Assembly (NCBI GenBank): GCA_903852755.1 | Contig: CAINRS010000134.1 | Location: forward strand, 1 to 52,024 | Source of the DNA: an uncultured Actinomycetes bacterium | GTDB lineage: Bacteria; Actinomycetota; Acidimicrobiia; Acidimicrobiales; Microtrichaceae | Reading direction: 5' to 3' | Length of the DNA: 52,024 nt | Part shown: positions 21,021 through 28,306 of the stretch, piece after piece | Position numbering within the stretch: position 1 is the first letter of the stretch | Layout: each line of letters begins with the position of its first letter | Program-made: the position numbers and the translations under genes | The notes under the pieces: generated by a model | Told to the model about the DNA's origin: nothing | What the model saw: only the letters and a program-made list of their open reading frames with translations | Databases searched by the model: none

Positions 21021-21946
21021 GCGGGACGAACGGACCCGACCTGCGGACGTCGGTCGGGTCGGTCGAGCTCGCCAACCCGGTCATGACGGCCTCCGGCACG
21101 GCCGGGTACGGCACCGAGCTGGGCGGGTTCGTCGACCTCGCCCGTCTGGGCGCGGTCGTGGTGAAGTCGCTCGGGGCCGACCCCTGGCCCGGCAACCGAC
21201 CGCCCCGGGTGCACGCCACCACTGCGGGGATGCTCAACAGCGTGGGGCTGCAGGGCCCGGGAGTCGAGGCCTGGCGTCGGGATCAGCTCCCGCTGCTCGA
21301 CGCGGCCGGTGCGACGGTCGTGGCGAGCATCTGGGGTGGGAGCGTGCAGGACTACGCCCGTGCCGCAGCGGCGCTCGCCGGGTGCCCGGAATCGGTCGTC
21401 GCCGTCGAGGTCAACCTGTCGTGTCCGAACCTCGACGGTGGTCAGCATCTGTTCGCCCACGATCCCCTGGCGTCCGCCGAGGTCATCCGTGAGGTGCGCT
21501 CGGCCGGACTGCCGTGCTGGGCGAAGCTGAGCCCGAACACCGACCGTCTCGTCGAGGTCGCCGATGCAGTCGCCGGGGCCGGCGCTGCGGCGGTGACGCT
21601 CGTCAACACCCTGCTCGGCATGGTCATCGACGTCGAACGTCGCCGTCCGGTGCTCGGGGCGGGCGGCGGTGGGCTCTCGGGGCCGGCGATCCACCCCGTG
21701 GCGGTGCGCGCGGTCCACACGGTCCACCGTGCGCTCCCCGAGCTGCCGATCGTCGGGGTCGGGGGAGTGGCCACCGCTGTCGACGCGGTCGAGCTGCTGC
21801 TCGCCGGAGCCTCCGCGGTGCAGGTCGGGACGGCCACCTTCGCCGACCCTCGTGCCGTGGGGCGGGTCCTCGACGGCCTGGGATCGTGGTGCCGGGACCA
21901 CGGCGTGGGTAGCGTGCGGGAGTTGATCGGAGGCGTTCGTGACTGA
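21017..21946 (+). CDS. pyrD: Dihydroorotate dehydrogenase, class 1B-type catalytic subunit
   Basis: A 309-residue FMN TIM-barrel. It resembles class 1B Pyr[54 protein letters not shown], and catalytic Cys in [32 protein letters not shown] and [19 protein letters not shown] complete the barrel. Class 1B enzymes normally pair with the Fe-S/FAD subunit PyrK to pass electrons to NAD; no pyrK is present here, so the partner or acceptor is unclear. It overlaps carB by 4 bp and pyrF by 8 bp. Confidence 0.94.
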
Positions 21947-22700
21947 TGCAGAGGGACAGGTCGGGTCAGGATCCGCCGGGGCGACCGGGCAGGACGGGGT
22001 TCCCGAGGACGTGCGCCGTCGCATGGCGCTCGTGCTCGACGTCGACGACCTGGTCGCGGCGCTGCGGACGGCCGGCACGCTGCGTGACTACTTCGGGGTG
22101 GCCAAGGTCGGCCTCGAGCTGTATAGCGCTGCGGGTCCCGAGGCGATCGGATCGCTCCGCGACCTCGGGTACGAGGTCTTCCTCGACCTGAAGATGTGGG
22201 ACATCCCCACCACCGTGCACCGCGCCTGTCGGGTGCTCGGGGCCCTCGGTGTCGAGTACCTGACCCTGCACGCGATGGGCGGCGTGGACATGCTCCGCGC
22301 CGGCGTCGAGGGGCTCCGCGAGGGTGCGGCCGGGGCGGGGCTCCCCGAGCCGTGTGCGCTCGGCGTCACGGTGCTCACGAGCGACGACTCCGCCCCCGAC
22401 CACGTCGTGCCCAACCGCGTCCGGGTCGCCGTCGAGGGTGGCTGCGGTGGTCTGGTGCTCGCGGCCTCCGACCTGCGGACGGCCTTCGAGCTCGCCCCGC
22501 GGCTCCAGCGGGTGGTCCCGGGGATCCGGCTCCCCGGGAGCGGGACCGACGACCAGGCTCGCTGGGCGACCCCCGGGGATGCCGCGGCCTCCGGGGCGGA
22601 CCTCCTGGTGATCGGGCGGACGGTCACGCACGCCGAGGATCCGGTGGCCGCCGCTGCGGCGGTGGCGGCTGCCATCGCCGAGTCCGGTCGTGACGGCTGA
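21939..22700 (+). CDS. pyrF: Orotidine-5'-phosphate decarboxylase
   Basis: A 253-residue OMP decarboxylase, last step to UMP. The catalytic D-K-D set is in [14 protein letters not shown]. Other matches: [45 protein letters not shown] and [10 protein letters not shown]. It is the short type 1 form, unlike the longer mycobacterial type. RBS GGAGG (21929-21933) lies 5 nt before GTG. The N-terminal 20 residues are Gly/Ser-rich and unconserved, so the true start could be slightly downstream. pyrE is not in the cluster. Confidence 0.95.
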
Positions 22701-23589
22701 CCGCGACCAGGTCCTGGCCTGGGCGGCAGCTGTCCGGGCCGGTCGTGCACTCCTCTGCACCCGTCTGTCGAGCGGGGAGCTCGACCTCGCCACCTGCCTG
22801 CGTGAGGCGCCGGACGCACCGTGGTCGGACACCACGGTGCTCGCCGTCCTCGAGGCGCTCCCCGGTGCCCGGAAGGTCGACACCCGACGCGTGCTCACCC
22901 AGCTCGGCGTCGATGCCACCGGAGCGGTCGGCCGGCTCGGAGCGGCCGACCGGACACGGCTGGAGCGGTGCTTCCCGCTCGCTCCGGTGACCGACGGTCG
23001 ACTCCGTCCCGGGACCGCCGTCCTGGTGGTGTCCGGCCCGGGAGGTGTCGGCAAGGGGACGATCGTGCGCCGCCTGTGCGAACTCGAACCGGCACTGTGG
23101 GTCTCCCGTTCGTGGACCACCCGCGCCCGCCGCCCCGGTGAGGACGCCGAGGCCTACCACTTCGCCACCCGAGCGGAATTCGAGGCCCACGTCGCCGCCG
23201 GAGGGTTCCTCGAATGGGTGGAGTTCCTCGACTACCTGCAGGGCAGTCCGCTGCCGTGCCCGCCTCCGGGCGTGGACGTCCTGTTCGAGATCGACGTCGC
23301 CGGCGCTGCGCTCGTCGCCGATCGGTACCCCGAGGCCGTGCTCGTGTTCGTCGACGCCCCCGACGCTGCCACCCAGGAGGCCAGGCTCCGGGGTCGCGGC
23401 GACGCCGAGGACCGCATCCGGCAGCGGATGGAGCACGCCCGGACCGAACGCGCCGCCGCCTCGGCGCTCGGGGTGGTCCCGGTCGTCAACGACGACCTCG
23501 AGACCGCCGTCGCCGAGGTGCGTGGCATCCTCGCCGGTGCCCGGGCCGGAGCGCGCGAGCGTGCCGGGGTTCCTGCTTCGGGTTCCTGA
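22690..23589 (+). CDS. gmk: Fusion of an mIHF-type H2TH DNA-binding domain with guanylate kinase
   Basis: A 299-residue protein. Residues about 10-95 match actinobacterial integration host factor (mIHF): [20 protein letters not shown], then [20 protein letters not shown] (H2TH segment) and [20 protein letters not shown]. In mycobacteria this is a separate gene directly upstream of gmk. Residues about 105-290 are guanylate kinase (GMP to GDP): P-loop [10 protein letters not shown] (115-124), [29 protein letters not shown], and LFEIDVAGA. No stop or frameshift separates the halves and the linker (about 96-108) is short. The GMP-binding loop is shortened and reads YLQGSP where YGTP is typical. 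GTG overlaps pyrF by 11 bp. Confidence 0.9.
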
Positions 23590-23620: not shown

Positions 23621-23729
23621 GCGACGGCCCCCGAACGGGTGACCGCACCGAACGAACCACGTGGCTCGAACGGAGTGGTCCTCCCGGCCCCCTGAGACCG
23701 ATCCCCGAACCCTGATGACCGGAGTTCCA

Positions 23730-24080
23730 GTGGCAGATTCGACCAACTCGATGATCTCCCCGCCGATCGAGGGCCTCCTCGAGCGTGCGGGCTCCAAGTT
23801 CTCGCTGGTCACCATCAGCGCCCGCCGGGCGAGGGACATCAACAGCTACTACCGGCAGCTCGGTGAGGCACTCGCCCAGTTCGCCGGTCCGCAGGTGACG
23901 TCGACCGCCCGCAAACCACTGTCGATCGCGTTCGAGGAGCTCGACGCGGACAAGGTGGAGGGTGTGGGCGGTGCGACCGGCCGGGAGATCCCGGCGTCCC
24001 TGCTACCCGCGGTCGAGGTGGAGGGTGGCGACGGCTTCGACGCCGTCCTCCCGACCGGTCCGGTCGGGACCGAGGACTGA
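23730..24080 (+). CDS. rpoZ: DNA-directed RNA polymerase omega subunit
   Basis: A 116-residue omega subunit in the usual gmk-rpoZ-coaBC order. MISPPIEGLLERAGSKFSLV and SARRARDINSYYRQLGE are the conserved core; KPLSIAFEELDADKV is the actinobacterial C-terminal match. GTG 23730 has a GGAG 5 nt upstream; ATG 23715 in the same frame is possible but lacks an RBS. Omega assists beta-prime folding and core assembly. The tail is acidic and unconserved. Confidence 0.88.
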   Translation: MADSTNSMISPPIEGLLERAGSKFSLVTISARRARDINSYYRQLGEALAQFAGPQVTSTARKPLSIAFEELDADKVEGVGGATGREIPASLLPAVEVEGGDGFDAVLPTGPVGTED

Positions 24081-26536: not shown

Positions 26537-28306
26537 GTGAGCGAGCCATCGGTCGTCTCGGTGCTCGTCGACGTCCCGGCGATCGACCGGATCTTCGACT
26601 ACGAGGTCCCCGCAGGCACCCGGGGCCCGCTCGAGATCGGCACGCTGGTGCGGGTCCCGCTGAGCGGTCGTCGGGTCGACGGCTGGGTCGTTGCCGTCGA
26701 CCCCGACCCGCCGACCGGTGTCGCGCTCCAGCCGATCCTGCAGGTGAGCGGCCTCGGGCCGACGGCCGAGGTGATCGACCTGTGCCGCTGGGCGGCGTGG
26801 CGGTGGGCGGGCCGCCTCCCGAGCCTGCTCCGCCACGGCACTCCCGACCGACGGGTCCGGCACCGTCCACCGCTGACGCCGCGTCCACCGGTGCGGGGTT
26901 CCGCCGATCCGGTCGCAACCGAGCTCCTGGCCCGGGGACCGGGCACCTGGGTCCTCGAGTGGCCGGTCGACGTCGATCCCACGCCGGTCGCCCTCGCCGC
27001 TGCGGCGACGGGCCAGGCGATCGTCGTGGCCCCCTCGGCGCGCACGGTCACGACCATCGGCACCAACCTGCGGCGCGCGGGTGCGGCAGCCGCCCGCTGG
27101 AGCCGAGACGCCGAGGCGGTCCTGGGTGGCGCCACGGTCGTGGGTGGGCGGAGCGCCGTGTTCGCCCCGACGCCCGATCTCCGCGCCGTGGTGGTCATCG
27201 ACGAGCACGACGGCCGGCTCCAGCAGGAGGAGTCCCCGACGTGGAACGCCCGGGAGGTCGCGATCGAACGGGCGCGGCGGGCCGGCGTGCCCTGTCTCCT
27301 CGTGGGGCCGATCCCGTCGCTCGAGGCCAGGCTGGCGGCGACCGCGCCGCCCGTGCCCGCGGTGCCCGATCTCGCGGCCTCGTGGCCGCGGGTCGAGGTC
27401 GTCGACCGACGTGAGGAGGACCGGGGGCGCACCGGGCTCTACTCCCCGTCGCTCGTGGAACGCATCCGTTCGGTCCGCGCCCAGGGCCGCCGGGTCGTCT
27501 GCGTGGTCAACCGGAAGGGGCGCGCCCGCCTGCTCGCGTGTCGGGGCTGCGGGACCGTCGCCGACTGCGAACGGTGCGGTGCGGTCGTCCGTCAGGACGA
27601 CTCCGGACAGCTCCGCTGCGAGCGCTGCGCCGCCGTCCGTCCGCTGGTGTGCGCATCGTGCGGCGCCTCGGGGCTGTCCAACCTGCGGCCCGGTGTCACC
27701 ACGGTGCGCGAGCAGCTCGAGGCGCTGGTCCGGGAGCCGGTGACCGCGATCACCGGGGGAGACCGTCGGGCCCCCGGGGACCTGCTCCCGGATGCGGCCG
27801 GTGTCGTGGTGGGAACGGAGGCGGTGCTCCACCGGGTCCCCGACGCAGGACTCGTGGCACTGCTCGACATCGACGCCGAGCTCCTCGCTCCCCGCTACCG
27901 GGCGGCCGAGGAGGCCCTCGGGCTGATCGTGGCGTCGGGCCGGTTGGTGGGCGGTCGACGTCGGGGGGACGGCGTGGTGCTCGTGCAGACCCGGATGCCC
28001 GATCACCCGGTCCTGACGGCCGCCGTCGCTGCCGATCCCGGGTCGCTGGTCGACTCGACGCTGGCCCAACGCCGACTGCTCGGTGACCCTCCGGCGGCGA
28101 CGATCGCCGTCGTCGCCCGAGAGGCGGCGCCCGCGTTCATGGATCGTCTCGGTGAGGTCGCCGGTGTGGAGCGCTCCGGTCCCGACGAGTCGGGGCAGTG
28201 GCTGCTGCGCAGCGAGGACCAGCGCACCCTCCTCGACGCGCTCGCTGCGGTCGAGCGTCCGCCGGGCCGGCTCCGGTTGTGGGTCGATCCGCTCCGGACG
28301 CGCTGA
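26537..28306 (+). CDS. priA: PriA-like primosomal protein N' lacking a functional helicase ATP site
   Basis: A 589-residue protein, shorter than the roughly 730-residue helicase form. The N-terminal DNA-binding domain (VSVLVDVPAIDRIFDYEVPA, GTLVRVPLSGRRVDGWVV) is conserved. The region that should hold Walker A (GxTGSGKTE) reads GQAIVVAPSARTVTTIG (159-175), so ATP binding is probably lost; a relic of motif II remains (VVVIDEHD, 218-225). All eight zinc Cys are present: C335, C338, C344, C347, C361, C364, C372, C375. Actinobacterial PriA is known to be helicase-degenerate and is thought to act as a replisome-loading scaffold. GTG start. It is convergent with the next gene. Confidence 0.9.
   Translation: MSEPSVVSVLVDVPAIDRIFDYEVPAGTRGPLEIGTLVRVPLSGRRVDGWVVAVDPDPPTGVALQPILQVSGLGPTAEVIDLCRWAAWRWAGRLPSLLRHGTPDRRVRHRPPLTPRPPVRGSADPVATELLARGPGTWVLEWPVDVDPTPVALAAAATGQAIVVAPSARTVTTIGTNLRRAGAAAARWSRDAEAVLGGATVVGGRSAVFAPTPDLRAVVVIDEHDGRLQQEESPTWNAREVAIERARRAGVPCLLVGPIPSLEARLAATAPPVPAVPDLAASWPRVEVVDRREEDRGRTGLYSPSLVERIRSVRAQGRRVVCVVNRKGRARLLACRGCGTVADCERCGAVVRQDDSGQLRCERCAAVRPLVCASCGASGLSNLRPGVTTVREQLEALVREPVTAITGGDRRAPGDLLPDAAGVVVGTEAVLHRVPDAGLVALLDIDAELLAPRYRAAEEALGLIVASGRLVGGRRRGDGVVLVQTRMPDHPVLTAAVAADPGSLVDSTLAQRRLLGDPPAATIAVVAREAAPAFMDRLGEVAGVERSGPDESGQWLLRSEDQRTLLDALAAVERPPGRLRLWVDPLRTR

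Follow-up and report, generated by a model that had tools for sequence, protein, structure and literature searches.

Why should a domain of a nucleoid protein stand at the head of a nucleotide kinase? The question is raised by a 52,024-nucleotide contig from an uncultured actinobacterium of the family Microtrichaceae (this whole stretch of DNA is hereafter called the window), in which an mIHF-type H2TH domain and a guanylate kinase (GMK) share one open frame. The initial annotation, which recognized the fusion, stated that the two are separate adjacent genes in mycobacteria, and the sections of PMC6155035 consulted do place gmk and rpoZ downstream of mihF in M. tuberculosis. According to the same sections, mIHF is essential in M. 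tuberculosis and is among the ten most abundant proteins of that organism, and both gmk and rpoZ had to be supplied for mihF to be deleted. Excerpts of PMC3724605 and PMC10028186 describe mIHF as bending and compacting DNA and sIHF as binding it. Our search of open-licence PubMed Central found no paper on an mIHF-guanylate kinase fusion, which may have been reported elsewhere.

The fused gene and its domains

The fused gene starts at GTG 22690, overlapping the last 11 nt of pyrF, and stops at TGA 23587-23589, giving a product of 299 amino acids. It lies in a plus-strand run of carB, pyrD, pyrF, the fused gene, rpoZ, coaBC, metK and a priA-like gene. The features that matter here are as follows.

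21939..22700, plus strand: pyrF, orotidine-5'-phosphate decarboxylase, upstream neighbor (PF00215, E 2e-39)
22690..23589, plus strand: mIHF-type H2TH / guanylate kinase fused gene, 299 codons plus TGA in one open frame
22699..22968, plus strand: degenerate mIHF / H2TH domain, residues 4-93 (NF041260, 6tob, fold match)
22849..22890, plus strand: retained hairpin of 14 residues, 54-67 (alignment)
22975..23016, plus strand: linker between the domains, residues 96-109, gap-free in all three genomes of the genus that carry the fusion
22987..22989, plus strand: inner GTG, residue 100, in alignment with the GTG at which gmk starts in the unfused relative L045
23017..23532, plus strand: guanylate kinase domain, residues 110-281 (PF00625, TIGR03263)
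23035..23058, plus strand: P-loop GPGGVGKG, residues 116-123 (read from the sequence)
23718..24080, plus strand: rpoZ, RNA polymerase omega, downstream neighbor (TIGR00690, E 3.6e-13; start codon uncertain)

The rpoZ product scores 49.4 bits against a TIGR00690 cut-off of 23.6. At the far end of the run, the PriA-like ORF (26537-28306, 589 aa) yields in Pfam the 3' DNA-binding domain alone, at E up to 1, and no helicase family, while NCBIfam PriA models match it under their cut-offs.

An H2TH domain had been placed at about residues 10-95, and the NCBIfam profile NF041260 (actino_IHF) matches residues 4-93 with an E-value of 1e-9, which bears out an mIHF similarity within the first 100 residues. 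The score of 38.8 bits is under the 60-bit family cut-off, as are those of the four other fused proteins described below (30.4-42 bits). Searched alone, the first 108 residues retrieved two structure chains, 6tob of mIHF (E 3.2e-6) and 4itq of sIHF (E 3.2e-5), and Pfam H2TH_5 gave a sub-threshold match (16.4 versus 27 bits). An AlphaFold2 model of residues 1-99 reached a pLDDT of 92.6, and a fold search with it put the sIHF-DNA structures 6bek and 4itq at the top (E 2.2e-5 to 7.4e-5, TM 0.78-0.86) with 6tob next (E 1.2e-3), so that the domain is by fold a member of the H2TH group of 4itq, 6bek and 6tob. Compared with mIHF (Rv1388) and sIHF (SCO1480), the fused protein has this fold in common, a like place before gmk, and the hairpin LPGxxKVxxRR, whose residues 54-67 are the core motif quoted in the initial annotation. 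It differs in its low family score, in the loss of many conserved basic residues, in a tryptophan that replaces K11 and in being joined to GMK.

The C-terminal half matches TIGR03263 over residues 110-281 (E 2.7e-39) at 134.7 bits, under the equivalog cut-off of 160.45, which is likewise not reached by the four other fused proteins (127.2-151.9 bits), and it exceeds the curated cut-off of PF00625 (61.6 versus 25.2 bits). The intact P-loop claimed at residues 115-124 is present at 116-123. Relative to known Gmk proteins (TIGR03263, PF00625; Rv1389, PDB 1s4q) the P-loop and overall fold are shared, with a phmmer E-value of 6.5e-28 to 1s4q, and the differences are a short FLDYLQGSP loop, common to the Acidimicrobiia rows listed, and the N-terminal H2TH domain. 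The motifs SxTTR and LEW, which we take to be those of the Gmk substrate site, look kept when read by eye. A model of the whole protein (pLDDT 93.0, pTM 0.74) leaves the relative placement of the two domains uncertain, and confidence is lower around the linker (pLDDT 69 for residues 91-100 and 83 for 101-110); all 50 matches listed in its fold search are guanylate kinases. In these models both domains look well formed.

Further, no second mIHF was found in the window's own genome, a 168-contig draft that is 96.5% complete (next best match E 0.08), and no second convincing gmk either, the next best match being a P-loop stretch at E 0.004. Judged by Pfam, by predicted fold and by the lack of another gmk in the genome, the C-terminal half is a guanylate kinase; that it phosphorylates GMP is an assumption based on the conservation of the domain and on that same lack.

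Recurrence of the fusion

The ungapped 299-residue fusion also occurs in G095 (L071) and G222 (L072), two other species of the window's genus, and the three fused proteins form one clade (support 100/98). The dN/dS ratio of the H2TH half is 0.30 (own-G095), 0.40 (own-G222) and 0.29 (G095-G222), rough values given a dS of 1.0-1.3 in that half, against 0.17, 0.21 and 0.23 for the kinase half in the same pairs. These ratios indicate that the H2TH half is under purifying selection, hence translated and kept. Because the same fusion stands in two other species and its H2TH half appears to be so constrained, we regard the gene as a genuine, fixed fusion and no artefact. An assembly or sequencing error joining two genes might be suspected where the window's genome is a draft in 168 contigs and the records behind the two others are MAGs, but the same ungapped junction in three assemblies, where the other two proteins share 75% and 63% identity with that of the window, makes such an error barely conceivable.

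How widespread the fusion is was addressed at several taxonomic depths. Among 33 genomes of the family searched, a single stop-free match over both domains was found in 4: the window's own, G095, G222 and G218, the last from another genus. In the order survey of 397 genomes (359 with a match), the rows stop-free over both domains among the matches listed were these same four. In the phylum survey of 396 genomes (347 with a match), at least 59 rows began at or before query residue 10 and ended at or after 274, and among the 59 such matches listed 57 contained an in-frame stop, the remaining two being the window's own and G095. Tandem mIHF-gmk rows with the mIHF gene directly upstream of gmk recur in both the order and the phylum searches. 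One further fusion, J010 (L079), lies outside the window's family on the trees and has about 35 residues between its domains. The fused set thus comprises nine rows from five genomes among 153 loci that hold duplicates. A class-wide profile built from a mixed mIHF-kinase alignment dropped most H2TH columns and scored the kinase only, so open-frame lengths were used instead; none of 19 cases (16 with long frames picked in this way from the class surveys, plus three family members with weak mIHF) was a fusion, some other long frames having been dismissed by comparing coordinates. The genome survey that had been called for shows the fusion to recur in G095, G222, G218 and J010.

On the trees the label 'fused' needs three changes; well-supported branches force three in the tree without the window's row and two in the tree that includes it. 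The fusions in G218 and J010 are most simply explained by independent origins.

A degenerate class of mIHF

To describe the domain we aligned 126 distinct mIHF domains from loci fetched by similarity, a sample weighted towards the window's family, and sorted them by motif into 93 canonical and 33 degenerate domains, with L053 counted as degenerate and the truncated L011 as canonical. Net charge is +3 to +11 in the canonical class (median +7) and -5 to +4 in the degenerate class (median -2); the window's domain has +1, and that of G222 has +4, within the canonical range. There are 16 columns that hold a basic residue in 85% or more of the 93 canonical domains. Of these, nine are not basic in the protein of the window (11, 17, 23, 27, 47, 49, 64, 78 and 79) and seven still are (5, 16, 19, 62, 66, 67 and 88). 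Across the degenerate set, nine columns (11, 17, 23, 27, 47, 64, 78, 79 and 88) are basic in at most 34%, columns 5 and 49 in about half, and columns 16, 19, 62, 66 and 67 in 94-100%. The basic shares in canonical and degenerate domains are as follows.

Column 5: 1.00 and 0.52
Column 11: 1.00 and 0.03
Column 17: 0.90 and 0.03
Column 23: 1.00 and 0.27
Column 27: 0.98 and 0.21
Column 47: 0.89 and 0.18
Column 49: 0.99 and 0.55
Column 64: 0.98 and 0.12
Column 78: 1.00 and 0.09
Column 79: 0.99 and 0.18
Column 88: 0.98 and 0.34

The degenerate class keeps the LPGxxKVxxRR hairpin, in which positions 62, 66 and 67 are basic in 97-100% of domains and E55 is present in 94%, and has acquired a consensus of its own: W11 in 29/33, T65 in 25/33 and L69 in 31/33. 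Since the loss of basic residues is mixed with new conserved residues, the pattern speaks against simple decay.

Almost all aligned members of the window's family (29 of 30) are degenerate, including unfused ones, which suggests that in this family degeneration preceded fusion. The exception, G198, has a canonical mIHF (131.3 bits), and on both trees its kinase is separate from those of the other family members. Conversely, 29 of the 33 degenerate domains come from loci of the window's family, as does that of L134 by its contig coordinates, so these counts represent few events. Each of the five fused domains found belongs to the degenerate class. Among loci with gmk in view, which leaves out three canonical and one degenerate domain, fusion occurs in 5/32 degenerate and 0/90 canonical mIHF-gmk pairs (Fisher test on the motif-defined classes, p 0.001, given as description only as rows share ancestry). 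J010 has A in place of the tryptophan and offers no degenerate unfused sister from which to order fusion and degeneration.

Other degenerate or weak mIHF genes were also observed. L096 and L111, which the tree places apart from the window's family, carry a further degenerate mIHF upstream of and separate from gmk, most simply another origin of degeneration. In the class survey, genomes of about 1 Mb from family f21, genus g40, gave weak best mIHF matches (E about 1e-7 to 7e-3) and two more gave no mIHF match; this is possibly another lineage with degenerate mIHF. The mIHF of the window's family also occurs in L091 and L134, two records titled Bifidobacterium breve MAGs, and L091 has the family's gmk as well, so these bins look mislabelled. 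L098, L105 and L112 have no recognizable mIHF before gmk and were set aside as cases of mIHF loss, pyrF also not being found on these loci.

The degenerate class bears directly on two readings of the fused domain. The first, the main rival to the interpretation we favor, holds that mIHF became dispensable, the overlapping frame slipped and the domain now rides on gmk, doing little and gradually decaying. The H2TH half does change faster than the kinase half (dN 0.30-0.48 versus 0.13-0.22), and mIHF is far weaker in the relatives G217, G220 and G225 (30-38 bits with a custom profile). However, its dN/dS is well under 1, the domain is gap-free across three species and confidently modelled, and its class has new consensus residues such as W11; we consider idle carriage unlikely on balance. 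The second reading is that of the initial annotation, in which a nucleoid protein is tethered to the enzyme, the domain still binding DNA and either holding GDP synthesis at the nucleoid or sensing the state of the nucleoid. The H2TH fold is kept, its best matches are DNA-bound sIHF, and the hairpin residues R61, K62, R66 and R67 are present along with R5, R16, R19 and R88. Yet the nine basic positions lost include both members of the R78-R79 pair, the net charge is small, all five fused domains are degenerate, and one domain per GMK copy fits poorly with an abundant nucleoid protein such as the M. tuberculosis mIHF of the PMC6155035 sections cited above. The tether is not supported by this comparison and now seems improbable.

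Joining of the two genes

The unfused relatives offer a model for how the genes joined. In the genus members G221, G223 and G224 the stop codon of mIHF and the start codon of gmk overlap within GTGA; the corresponding sequence in G199 is ATGA. The pairs of L044, L045 and L047 have the same degenerate mIHF and the same order pyrF-mihF-gmk as the window, but they are two genes with a GTGA overlap where the window has one frame: at the junction the mIHF frame of L045 runs CCG-TGA, letters that contain the GTG of gmk, and the window reads CCG-GTG-ACC in a single frame. The gmk start lies within a four-base NTGA overlap in 19/27 unfused degenerate loci versus 15/80 canonical loci, counts that include related rows and some near-duplicates. 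Given these overlaps in unfused relatives, a series from separate to overlapping to fused genes is a natural one, and it fits the suggestion, made alongside the tether, of read-through fixed by evolution.

The junction also raises the prospect of two products, in which GTG 22987 would still serve gmk as a start of its own and the long protein would be the minor one. This GTG aligns with the gmk start of the unfused L045, and G095 has a GTG one codon earlier, at residue 99. No Shine-Dalgarno-like sequence was seen by eye before the inner GTG of the window or of G095, however, and a separately started GMK is for that reason unlikely. In addition, G222 has no start codon at the junction, its nearest being a GTG at 94, in the last H2TH helix, and an ATG at 112, in the first kinase strand, and with the mIHF stop gone a stop-restart coupling presumably cannot work. 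Taken together, we give internal initiation very little chance.

Proposed role of the fused domain

We lean, with some reserve, towards a history in which a degenerate mIHF left its nucleoid role and then became an N-terminal structural or regulatory domain of GMP kinase. In this scenario, the neighbors mihF and gmk acquired a four-base overlap (NTGA). Before any joining, the mIHF of the family would have lost much of its canonical basic surface, as judged by conservation, and would then probably no longer have been an abundant nucleoid protein. A small frame change at the overlap, suggested by the comparison of junctions, would have joined the genes in the ancestor of the three sampled species of one genus. 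A cell requires its nucleoid protein in large quantity, so tying that protein one-to-one to a metabolic enzyme makes most sense if the nucleoid role had already gone. HU was found in 14 of the 15 genomes checked, the window's own included, and Lsr2 in none of the 15.

The domain appears to have stayed folded and conserved and is now a small N-terminal part of what is apparently the sole GMP kinase in the cell. Its role would most likely be structural or regulatory, in stabilizing, oligomerizing or partner binding rather than in DNA anchoring, while the C-terminal domain presumably makes GDP like other guanylate kinases. We deduce both the new role and the loss of DNA binding from sequence comparison, and some points count against them: with seven of the 16 basic positions and the hairpin residues remaining, the domain may still hold nucleic acid. 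In our ranking a structural or regulatory part of GMK comes first and idle carriage is its main rival, with a DNA tether less likely.

More tentatively, we hypothesize that mIHF was repurposed as a dedicated guanylate kinase subunit. The degenerate mIHF would bind and control GMK, or a nucleotide, instead of DNA, the new conserved tryptophan would lie in the contact, and the separate fusions would betray the partnership. This is a possibility that we put well short of even. A degenerate domain that overlaps gmk and has been fused to it more than once makes a possible mIHF-GMK partnership a testable claim. An mIHF gene stands before gmk in many actinobacteria, and the case described here would show an essential DNA-binding protein drifting out of its role, such that a protein essential in a related bacterium may here be doing a different job.
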